This document shows positions 28,118 through 36,601 of a DNA stretch of 44,958 nucleotides, piece by piece. The notes under the pieces are model-generated. The model saw nothing but the letters and a program-made list of their open reading frames with translations. It was not told where the DNA came from and ran no database searches. The position numbers and the translations under genes are program-made. Where the stretch lies: NCBI GenBank assembly GCA_013002295.1, contig JABDKI010000064.1, positions 1 through 44,958 on the forward strand, written 5' to 3'. Within the stretch, counting starts at the first letter, position 1. Each line of letters begins with the position of its first letter. The DNA comes from Altererythrobacter sp. GTDB taxonomy: Bacteria; Pseudomonadota; Alphaproteobacteria; Sphingomonadales; Sphingomonadaceae.

Positions 28118-28175
28118 GTATTCTCTCCTTACAGAGAGCACGCGCGGCGTTGGGACCGCGTGGCCCACGGGCCGC
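28118..28175 (-). promoter_or_regulatory. Folded serC leader, candidate serC RNA motif
   Basis: Directly upstream of the serC ATG three helices follow one another on the minus strand. They are GGCCC/GGGCC (28162-28173), CACGCG (28157-28162) with CGCGTG (28139-28144), and CTCTC (28134-28138) with GAGAG (28123-28127). The last one buries the Shine-Dalgarno sequence. A serC RNA motif at this position is known in alphaproteobacteria. I match it by location and shape, not by alignment. Confidence 0.55.
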
Positions 28176-34060: not shown

Positions 34061-35278
34061 ATGCCAGATATCAAACGTGTTGTTCTCGCCTATTCCGGAG
34101 GTCTCGATACCTCGGTCATCGCGAAATGGCTCGAGGTAGAGCGCGGCTGCGAAGTGGTGACATTCACTGCCGATCTCGGCCAAGGTGAAGAGATCGAGCC
34201 GGCCCGCACCAAAGCGCGCGCGATGGGCATCCCGGACAAGCACATTTATATCGAAGATCTTCGCGAAGAATTTGTGCGTGACTTCGTCTTCCCAATGATG
34301 CGCGCCAATGCCCGCTATGAAGGCGACTATCTCCTCGGCACCTCTATTGCGCGACCTCTAATTTCCAAACGATTGGTCGAAATCGCGCATGAGACAGGCG
34401 CCGATGCGATCGCTCATGGTGCGACCGGCAAAGGCAATGATCAGGTTCGTTTCGAGCTGAGCGCCTATGCGCTTGATCCGGATATCAAAGTGATCGCGCC
34501 ATGGCGCGAGTGGGATTTGGCCAGCCGGACCGCTCTGATTGCATGGGCGGAGAAGCATCAGATCGCGGTGCCTAAGGACAAGCGCGGTGAGAGCCCGTTC
34601 TCGACCGACGCAAACCTGCTCCACACTTCGTCTGAGGGCAAAGTATTGGAAGATCCTTGGGAAGAGACCCCCGACTACGTCTATTCGCGCACCGACAATC
34701 CTGAAGATGCGCCGGAAACACCCGAATACATCACTATCGACTTTGAACGCGGCGATGGCGTGGCGCTGAATGGTGAGGCGATGTCGCCTGCCAGTTTGCT
34801 GACCGCGCTTAATGATCTTGGCCGCAAGCACGGCATTGGCCGGCTCGATCTGGTCGAGAACCGCTTTGTCGGGATGAAAAGCCGCGGCATGTATGAAACG
34901 CCAGGCGGCGAGATTTATGCCCGCGCGCATCGGGGGATCGAGCAGATTACGCTGGATCGCGGCGCAGCGCATCTGAAGGATGAGCTGATGCCCAAATATG
35001 CCGAACTGATCTACAACGGGTTCTGGTTCGCGCCAGAGCGAGAGATGCTGCAAGCGGCGATAGACCACAGTCAGGAAAAGGTCAGCGGAACGGTTCGCCT
35101 GAAGCTCTACAAGGGTGTTGCAGGCGTCGTTGGGCGCAAGAGCCCAAATTCGCTCTACTCCGAATCGCATGTGACCTTCGAAGATGATGCCGGCGCCTAT
35201 GATCAAAAGGACGCTGAAGGCTTCATCAAACTGAACGCTTTACGGCTCAAATTGCTTGCAAAACGCGATCACGCCTGA
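34061..35278 (+). CDS. argG: Argininosuccinate synthase
   Basis: Joins citrulline and aspartate with ATP, the step before ArgH. The 405-residue enzyme begins with the N-type PP-loop [18 protein letters not shown] and contains [43 protein letters not shown] and the C-terminal [11 protein letters not shown]. The ATG at 34061 is preceded by GAGG with nine bases spacing. In-frame upstream residues are not family-like. The 3' side is followed by about 770 bases without a protein gene. Confidence 0.97.
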
Positions 35279-35310: not shown

Positions 35311-35353
35311 TTATCCACGCGCATCCACAGATGATCTGAGGAAAAGTGGATAA
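35311..35353. promoter_or_regulatory. Inverted TTATCCAC pair (DnaA-box-like) after argG
   Basis: TTATCCACG (35311-35319) and its inverse GTGGATAA (35346-35353) each match eight of nine DnaA-box positions (TTATNCACA). Between them lie ATCCACAG and a short palindrome CAGAT-G-ATCTG. In RNA the two arms would form an eight-pair stem. Whether DnaA binds here is open, and no replication genes are nearby. Confidence 0.4.
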
Positions 35354-35399
35354 GTCGGGGTTGCAAAGCTTGCGCGACTCACTTTGAGGGCGCAGTCTT

Positions 35400-35904
35400 A
35401 AGACATCGGAAGGGAGAGAAACTCAACCGGAAATCTGGCTCCAACGAGTTGATTTCACGAGAGTTTCTCAGAACAACCGACGCAGTGGATATTGTCCACG
35501 CGGTCTTTGAGACTGGACATGCGGAAGGTGCAAACTGGAAGCAAGTGCAGTTGCCTGAGGGGAACGCGAAGCACATTCACTGGATAGGCCAGGAACCTGG
35601 TTGTGAAACGAGGAAGGTGGAAGCTGAGGCAGAAACCAGCCGTTTGAGGGAAGCAATCGCGAAGGGAGAATGGTCTCGGTAGCGTTGAAAAAAAGGGCAC
35701 CGCTAGGAAGGGCTTCGGCACGGAATAGTAGGACCGATTGGAAGGCGAGACCGGATGCCGACGCGAGCGTCGGTGAAAAGAGCCTCCAACCCGTTGGAGG
35801 GGATAGAAACCGAGTGCCAAGCGCTTCTTGAAAGGTTCGCCGGAAAAGAAGACCACGCGACGGTAAGAGTGGGGTCGGCAGCAATGTCGGCCCCATTTGC
35901 TTTT
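35400..35904 (+). ncRNA. Large structured non-coding RNA candidate
   Basis: About 500 purine-rich bases with many separate helices on the plus strand. They include GAGAAACTC (35416-35424) with GAGTTTCTC (35461-35469), and GTGGA (35485-35489) with TCCAC (35495-35499). Next are GCAA-CTG (35530-35537) with CAGTTGC (35548-35554), CCAG (35589-35592) with CTGG (35597-35600), and CAATCGC with GCGTTG (35654-35687). Further on are CCGACG (35758-35763) with CGTCGG (35768-35773), CCTCCAA (35783-35789) with TTGGAGG (35794-35800), and CTTCTT (35824-35829) with AAGAAG (35846-35851). GGCACCG (35696-35702) can join CGAGTGCC (35811-35818) over a distance. The 5' boundary is approximate and no promoter was clear. 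I find no RNase P, tmRNA, SRP or intron hallmarks. Confidence 0.6.
35871..35904 (+). terminator. GNRA-capped intrinsic terminator of the RNA candidate
   Basis: GGGGTCGGCA (35871-35880) pairs over ten positions with TGTCGGCCCC (35885-35894), two pairs being G-T, around the tetraloop GCAA. It is followed by ATTTGCTTTT. It gives a defined 3' end for transcription through 35400-35870. Confidence 0.8.
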
Positions 35905-36049: not shown

Positions 36050-36601
36050 ATGGAGAGGGATTTCCATATTCATACGCGGATCTGCTGCGTCCTCATAGCG
36101 AGTCTGCTCGCTATAGCTTCTCCGCCGGTTGTAGGACAGGATGCCGACGAGGACGGTCATTCTGAAGCAATGCAACAAGATCAAAGCTTCGAAGATGGCT
36201 TTTCAGTGTTCGACATTCCTCTCCCTCCGCACGACCATCCTGACGACGCTGTCGACATTACTGAGATCGAACCGCCAGAAGAGCCGGCCGTCGGCAATGT
36301 TGTGCGCGATCTCGGTACCGGTCACGCCTCCTACTATGGGCGACGCTTCCACGGCCGCTTGACCGCCAATGGAGAGCGGTTCGACATGCGCGCGATGACC
36401 GCCGCGCACAAAACGCTTCCCTTTGGCAGTGTGGTGCGCGTTACCAACCGCCGAAATGGCCGCTCGGTTGTCGTGCGGATCAATGATCGCGGTCCCTTTG
36501 TCAGGGGGCGAACAATCGATCTAAGCCGGGCCGCAGCAGAAGAGATCGGCTTGGTAAAAACCGGTGTTGGCGAAGTACGGATCGAACTGCTCGCTTCATA
36601 A
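36050..36601 (+). CDS. rlpA: Septal-ring lytic transglycosylase RlpA-type protein
   Basis: A 183-residue exported protein with a signal segment ICCVLIASLLAIASPP in its first 30 residues and an acidic linker (DEDGHSEAMQQD and DDAVDITEIEPPEEP). The RlpA double-psi beta-barrel domain shows GHASYYGRRFHGRLTANG, AAHKTLPFGSVVRVTN, VVVRINDRGPFVRGRTIDLS and RAAAEEIGL. RlpA cuts naked glycan strands of peptidoglycan at the septum. It lacks a SPOR domain, so it is a short form. The ATG at 36050 has no clear ribosome site. Confidence 0.88.
   Translation: MERDFHIHTRICCVLIASLLAIASPPVVGQDADEDGHSEAMQQDQSFEDGFSVFDIPLPPHDHPDDAVDITEIEPPEEPAVGNVVRDLGTGHASYYGRRFHGRLTANGERFDMRAMTAAHKTLPFGSVVRVTNRRNGRSVVVRINDRGPFVRGRTIDLSRAAAEEIGLVKTGVGEVRIELLAS

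Follow-up and report, generated by a model that had tools for sequence, protein, structure and literature searches.

A predicted large structured non-coding RNA gene between argG and rlpA in Altererythrobacter and its relatives

The argG–rlpA gap and its upstream sites

The window, i.e. the whole 44,958-nt stretch of DNA analysed here, is contig JABDKI010000064.1 of Altererythrobacter sp. (GCA_013002295.1), read on its forward strand. On the plus strand argG (34061-35278) and rlpA, whose conserved part starts at 36053, are separated by 774 nt, and a sequence-only reading was right to see no plausible protein gene in this gap, since no reading frame is kept there. We predict in it a structured non-coding RNA of about 500 nt (35405-35904, plus strand), on the grounds of homologue lengths, covariation and the absence of a frame; that it is transcribed, and where it starts and ends, we infer from the sequence. 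The predicted length ranges from 445 to 607 nt among 129 homologues, with a median of 528. On comparative grounds, a free-standing non-coding RNA gene at this place is highly probable. The sequence-only reading had inferred such a gene, and of the checks it named, the Rfam comparison, the homologues after argG, the covariation and the search for a kept frame all favour it.

Upstream of the RNA lies a putative operator (35311-35353) made of three sites: TTATCCAC (35311-35318), TCCACA (35324-35329) and GTGGATAA (35346-35353). The outer two resemble DnaA boxes, are inverted, and start 35 bp apart. Among 135 homologues the first box reads TTATCCAC in 105, TTGTCCAC in 19 and TTTTCCAC in 6, and the middle TCCAC is found in 134; these counts are favoured by the way the homologues were excised, through a loose match to these two sites. 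The third site, unused for excision, reads GTGGATAA in 78 homologues or GTGGAAAA in 53, and the spacing of the outer boxes is 35 bp in 131 of 134. The change from GTGGATAA to GTGGAAAA abolishes a pairing with TTATCCAC and so points to a site at the DNA level. The eight loci devoid of a loose operator match all have less than 480 nt ahead of the 3' hairpin. A pattern joining the exact box pair to a TTG was found in 45 of 286 genomes of the order, by position always at the RNA, while its reversed control gave 0; this exact pattern misses other RNA-bearing genomes.

Between the operator and the RNA we predict a sigma-70-like promoter on the plus strand (35370-35398), with a -35 element TTGCGC (35370-35375), a 17-bp spacer and a -10 element CAGTCT (35393-35398). 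The arrangement TTG-17-CAnnnT occurs in 129 of the 134 sequences having the third box, at the identical offset in 119 of them, and its rate in mononucleotide shuffles is 0.13% (over a 12-nt offset range); the likeness of CAnnnT to TATAAT is weak. The centres of the box-like sites would stand about 55 to 90 bp before the predicted start, a position that fits an activator or a repressor site, as does their helical phasing.

Fold, covariation and strand

Segments were aligned from 135 unique sequences, and 117 diverse ones were folded. The helices of the RNA form six consecutive domains joined by short linkers, all given here on the plus strand, and the window copy forms 97 of the 106 consensus pairs. 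Domain 1 (35406-35480) is a long irregular hairpin closed by 35406-09/35477-80. It is among the weakest parts: its sequence turns over, yet its ends still pair, at least three terminal pairs closing it in the minimum free energy (MFE) fold of 124 of the 135 sequences. Domain 2 (35483-35582) comprises P2 (35483-90/35575-82), P3 (35499-508/35559-68) and, in the consensus fold, P4 (35511-13/35550-52, 35520-22/35541-43 and 35527-29/35534-36). Domain 3 (35587-35675) contains P5 (35587-93/35669-75), P6 (35599-604/35653-58), P7 (35609-11/35644-46) and a weak P8 (35621-24/35629-32). Taken over all 135 sequences, changes on both sides affect 8 of the 8 pairs of P2, 10 of the 10 of P3 and 6 of the 7 of P5. 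P5 is paired at 84.3%, and the window copy forms five of its seven pairs but two of the four of P8. Domain 4 (35677-35753) includes P9 (35677-80/35750-53) and the hairpin P11 (35710-13/35718-21).

Domain 5 (35756-35865) is built of P12 (35756-65/35856-65), P13 (35767-75/35808-17) and P15 (35821-28/35847-54, six of seven pairs changed on both sides), with a variable hairpin, P14, which the window fold places at 35783-89/35794-800. Its first part, 35756-35775, is a conserved quasi-palindrome able to pair either locally or with the two distant strands 35808-35817 and 35856-35865. Covariation favours the long-range pairing, through pairs 35762/35859, 35756/35865 and 35774/35809, and the local hairpin is nearly possible throughout, so that the RNA may be a two-state switch. 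Last comes the 3' hairpin P16 (35867-35898), made of 14 pairs with a GCAA loop and followed by a U-rich stretch, a probable terminator. The GNRA-capped hairpin with its T-rich tract had been correctly noticed from the sequence: it is paired at 100% and 12 of its 14 pairs never change in 62 sequences. Such a sequence is far more invariant than a terminator requires, suggesting a signal for protein binding or for processing.

The covariation was measured on two alignments, A1 for the central part (65 sequences) and A2 for the 3' part (62 sequences), both subsets of 81 sequences. For A1, 16 sequences were removed manually on no stated criterion, five being short in this segment; for A2, 19 with long insertions (190-248 nt) were set aside, a choice which favours a clean alignment. 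In A1, 75.8% of the cells pair and 44 of the 47 pairs are changed on both sides, the weakest helices being P8 (35.0% paired) and P6 (61.7%); the covariation is 0.392, against 0.206 (sd 0.007) after shuffling and at most 0.156 after sliding. In A2, 95.0% of the cells pair and the covariation is 0.265; shuffling gives 0.153 (sd 0.005) and sliding at most 0.078.

A further comparison is that with a tree null, i.e. sequences re-evolved by our own script after the idea of R-scape (60 nulls for each of A1 and A2), under which 19,701 pairs were tested in A1 and 11,628 in A2. At E<1 five of the five pairs detected in A1 and five of the six in A2 fall in the structure, that is 10 of 11 together; at E<0.05 these figures are 2 of 2 and 4 of 5. 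The pairs of the structure reaching E<1 are 35483/35582, 35489/35576, 35503/35564, 35506/35561 and 35528/35535 in domain 2, and 35774/35809, 35823/35852, 35825/35850, 35826/35849 and 35827/35848 in domain 5; pairs 35711/35720 and 35712/35719 of P11 also covary beyond the tree null. A first whole-length alignment gave a weaker signal, with 4 pairs over the null; in a segment-wise one 18 pairs reached E<1, and for 4 of these fewer than half of the sequences can pair (20 nulls in each case).

The strand is indicated by the number of G-U cells compared with that of A-C cells: 431 against 48 in A2 and 348 against 139 in A1, which designates the plus strand as the RNA. This strand has an MFE of about -184 (z -3.14), and none of 100 dinucleotide shuffles is as good; for the minus strand z is -1.63 and 9 of 100 shuffles are as good. 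The free MFE fold of the window copy contains, however, 35 of the 106 consensus pairs, P2, P3, P5, P9, P12 and P15 being paired otherwise, and enforcing the consensus pairs gives -166.4 against -183.9 kcal/mol. As the free fold is better by 17.5 kcal/mol, the z-score gives no support to the consensus fold, and the case for the latter rests on covariation.

Three perfect local helices had been proposed from the window alone. Two of them, 35416-24/35461-69 and 35783-89/35794-800, are present in the MFE fold, while 35758-63/35768-73, though complementary, is unused there. The long-range helix proposed as possible at 35696/35811 is not conserved in the one register tried, and the window offers at most five pairs there (35696/35818). 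As for coding capacity, the indels of nine pairwise comparisons with the window leave a remainder of 1, 2 or 0 modulo 3 in 46, 12 and 5 cases respectively; they are not multiples of three, as expected if no frame is kept.

Relatives and distribution

A DNA search of 61 genomes, the window's own included, found the RNA in 32. All of these belong to the window's genus, of which 37 genomes were searched, and none of the 24 genomes from other families gave a match; in the 30 loci fetched from this search, argG precedes and rlpA follows in every case. The placing after argG made from the sequence alone extends to the homologues, which are present at this place across the family, nearly all of the 135 unique sequences aligned lying between argG and rlpA. 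Searched with a strict 3' hairpin pattern, 50 of 298 genomes of the family, from 19 of its 96 genera, give one match each, and the named genome collection has at least 118 matching stretches. Among the matches listed, the carriers are mostly Erythrobacter, Qipengyuania, Altererythrobacter, Porphyrobacter, Croceibacterium, Pelagerythrobacter, Aurantiacibacter, Allopontixanthobacter and similar genera, a few being named to order or class level.

R1, a covariance model of the 3' domain, scores at least 67.9 bits in 78 of 296 genomes of the order, belonging to 20 genera, all of the window's own family; the next best score is 49.1. At E<=0.001 it detects 163 of the 296 genomes, but most of those beyond the 78 are background: in genomes with a true copy second matches reach 41.9 bits, so that matches below about 50 bits are mostly background. 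As with the hairpin pattern, there is one strong R1 match per genome. In the candidates of genus g98 (L217-L220 and L229) no operator is seen. Within the window's genus one single-contig genome of 99% completeness (G003) gave no convincing match by DNA search or by R1, the other four congeners devoid of a match being fragmentary genomes. The RNA is therefore not detected everywhere even in its genus, and some members may do without it.

Six more genera of the family (g117, g90, g108, g23, g45 and g65) have diverged relatives of the RNA. A pattern joining the box pair to TCGRRAGG was found in 27 of 396 genomes of the order and 10 of 84 genera (reversed control 0) and in one of 289 genomes of the class, namely the window's own; the operator pattern revealed no relative in about 285 genomes of other orders. 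Examined by eye, the distant loci show the operator, have TCGGAAGG or a similar sequence as their 5' end, and carry a long, mostly GNRA-looped hairpin followed by U-rich DNA; the most distant of these members are assigned by operator, 5' end and 3' hairpin. The promoter motif is present in the g117, g108, g45 and g65 loci tested (with a spacer of 18 in g65) and absent from all three g23 loci tested. R1, built without the distant genera, gives 60.1 bits at the G128 locus, weak scores at those of G103, G167 and G061, and no match at that of G146; for G061 the score is 29.4 bits at the RNA locus against 30.5 at a place elsewhere. In the other genera of the family tested, argG is followed by apparent protein genes, as judged by eye.

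Nature of the RNA and rival readings

Operator, promoter, folded RNA and terminator, kept together at a nearly fixed place with one strong match per genome, indicate a dedicated gene. Our reading of the whole, to which we give a probability of about 0.6, is that of an RNA gene running from promoter to hairpin, whose six-domain product would be a structural RNA acting in trans under the control of DnaA. The sigma-70-like promoter would start the transcript near 35405, and this transcript would end at the hairpin 35867-35898, fold into its six domains and probably constitute the core of an RNA–protein particle. The high degree of structure and the invariant 3' hairpin point to such a scaffold or ribonucleoprotein core rather than to an antisense regulator. 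Transcription would most likely be controlled by DnaA bound at the upstream inverted boxes, in which case, we propose, the amount of RNA would follow the replication cycle. A further step, the action in trans of the RNA on replication or on cell-cycle control, we put forward only tentatively.

For the part of DnaA itself, as the protein bound at the upstream boxes and controlling the RNA, we see the chances as even; another protein could bind them. A real RNA in which DnaA takes no part, the boxes binding another regulator and the product being a general structural or stress RNA, is possible, if the less probable view. It is consistent with the boxes of the window, which match only 8 of the 9 letters of the DnaA box consensus, TTATCCACA. 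It fits less well with g23 and g65, where both outer boxes match 9 of 9 letters (TTATCCACA / TGTGGATAA), and with the spacing of these boxes, fixed within groups: 35 bp in that of the window, 25-26 bp in g117, g23, g45 and g65, and 37 in g108, the difference between 25-26 and 35 bp being about one helical turn.

The RNA might instead be the very long 5' leader of rlpA, a riboswitch or attenuator in which a ligand or a protein would open the terminator hairpin. Such a leader would explain that, in a survey of 148 loci (some being the same place fetched twice), rlpA was located in 142 and is in each of them downstream and codirectional, and that the terminator-like hairpin closes the RNA 122-1015 nt ahead of the rlpA match. 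Among the six loci where rlpA was not located, L067 alone has a flank long enough to be meaningful. Yet the RNA is kept at L225, where rlpA is on the opposite strand, and at L223, L233 and L241, where rlpA was not found within a flank of about 0.6-1.3 kb; moreover the near invariance of the 3' hairpin is unlike what we would expect of an attenuator. We consider this reading unlikely.

A little less probable still is a conserved DNA element, for DnaA titration or replication control, with folding as a side effect. The DnaA-like boxes do rank among the best-conserved bases (the first boxes having been used for excision), but they lie outside the folded part, the pairs are kept through G-U on one strand, and in five single-contig genomes, taken as circular, the locus is about 1.08-1.28 Mb from hemE, hence not at an origin of the hemE type; that the origin lies beside hemE is inferred from Caulobacter.

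The view that the RNA is a structured 3' untranslated tail cut from the argG message, which we rank just below, has in its favour that argG almost always precedes the RNA on the same strand: it is upstream in 136 of the 137 surveyed loci with sufficient flank, and of the 12 loci without it 11 have less than 820 nt ahead of the 3' hairpin. At the remaining one, L177 (Pelagerythrobacter rhizovicinus), the 4.2 kb preceding this hairpin contain no argG; its upstream ORFs resemble, by eye, a response regulator and a histidine kinase, i.e. a two-component pair. A tail of argG is also at odds with the conserved promoter-like and operator-like sites proper to the RNA, and with the stretch that separates argG from the operator, often at least 100 nt of unaligned sequence and about 670 nt in G061, while in G103 argG is about 436 kb away. 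From the arrangements at L177, L225, L223, L233 and L241 it follows that the RNA is tied to neither neighbour.

Lastly, an Arg/Ser/Pro-rich protein encoded on the minus strand has a next to negligible chance: the window does hold two open frames of 183-184 aa there, stretches of them align in relatives (as conserved DNA alone would do), and the longest frame has a median of 157 aa in 135 homologues against 130 in dinucleotide shuffles, but the best frame is already split in L002, the closest relative at 93% identity, the indels are mostly of single bases, and 129 of 500 dinucleotide shuffles hold a frame at least as long as that of the window. Mononucleotide shuffles had made these frames seem long, an effect lessened with dinucleotide shuffles; the sequence-only reading had rightly ascribed them to composition.

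The dedicated RNA gene being our preferred reading, its kinship with known RNAs has to be considered. No Rfam family reaches its gathering score at the window locus, where two unrelated families alone, both on the minus strand, appear at E<=10; nor is there a match over threshold at the eight loci tested besides, and a known Rfam family was rejected. So was a phage or plasmid element, the RNA having no match in phage or plasmid collections and a place between argG and rlpA. To our knowledge few bacterial RNAs of such size and complexity are known, several of them lacking a function. OLE, GOLLD and ROOL, to which the RNA had been likened in size without a match, have Rfam models, none of which hits here. 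These three RNAs share with ours the size class, the many domains, the absence of a frame and a function mostly unknown, and GOLLD still lacks an assigned function (PMC12286853). They differ in that ours matches no Rfam family and sits at one nearly fixed chromosomal place; of the prophage, phage or tRNA-island setting of GOLLD and ROOL, its place between argG and rlpA and the phage and plasmid collections gave no sign. Their own traits include assembly as homo-oligomer or nanocage and, for OLE, partner proteins. The RNA thus stands apart from all families tested, size and complexity alone being shared with OLE, GOLLD and ROOL.

CcnA of Caulobacter crescentus offers another comparison, as an alphaproteobacterial non-coding RNA connected with replication and with control of the cell cycle, a connection which for our RNA is only proposed; its gene lies within the replication origin and is presumably activated by CtrA (PMC8959179). 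An RNA of the CcnA type would be under CtrA control and act on the ctrA and gcrA messages; ours, more than 1 Mb from hemE and with DnaA-box-like sites, is set apart by these features.

A literature search, with subscription journals mostly outside its reach, found neither an earlier description of the argG–rlpA RNA nor expression data for it. PMC11109978, PMC8632094 and PMC2864571, whose main texts were searched by word, gave no sign of it, PMC8632094 naming, in that text, one Sphingomonas for a different motif; and the five genomes analysed in PMC6429828 include no sphingomonad. It may have escaped earlier surveys of RNAs. That the Sphingomonadaceae possess a novel class of large RNA with many domains, switched by DnaA, feeding back on replication or the cell cycle as a machine of RNA or of RNA and protein, and maybe acting as a two-state switch, is a speculative and rather doubtful extension of our reading. 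If the control by DnaA is true, a large structural RNA would be tied to the initiation of replication. The presence of the RNA in named strains (Erythrobacter longus DSM 6997, Qipengyuania citrea, Porphyrobacter) makes it amenable to deletion and to the search of partners.

The RNA was also compared with house-keeping structured RNAs, RNase P RNA, 6S RNA and alpha-tmRNA, of which RNase P RNA and tmRNA are of similar size. One of these in disguise was rejected: no Rfam match for them occurs here, and such genes are located elsewhere in the genomes, RNase P in 8 of 8, 6S in 8 of 8 (all reaching E<=0.001, and 5 scoring over the cut-off) and alpha-tmRNA in 5 of 6, the latter not being found in the window's own incomplete genome. 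A partial likeness concerns BjrC68 (RF02353, an 82-nt model), which has no match in the window. Among the eight other loci tested L261, a distant member, alone resembles it, by a GC-rich GCAA-loop hairpin with a U-rich tail at the 3' end, scoring 28.8 bits where the gathering score is 39; at L261:2069-2140 (plus strand) a UACCCG stretch and a GCAA terminator-like hairpin are shared with this family. Elsewhere in the window, a serC leader (RF00517) is found at 28118-28170 on the minus strand, with 43.4 bits against a gathering score of 35, and one tRNA-Thr lies about 1.6 kb from the argG–rlpA RNA.
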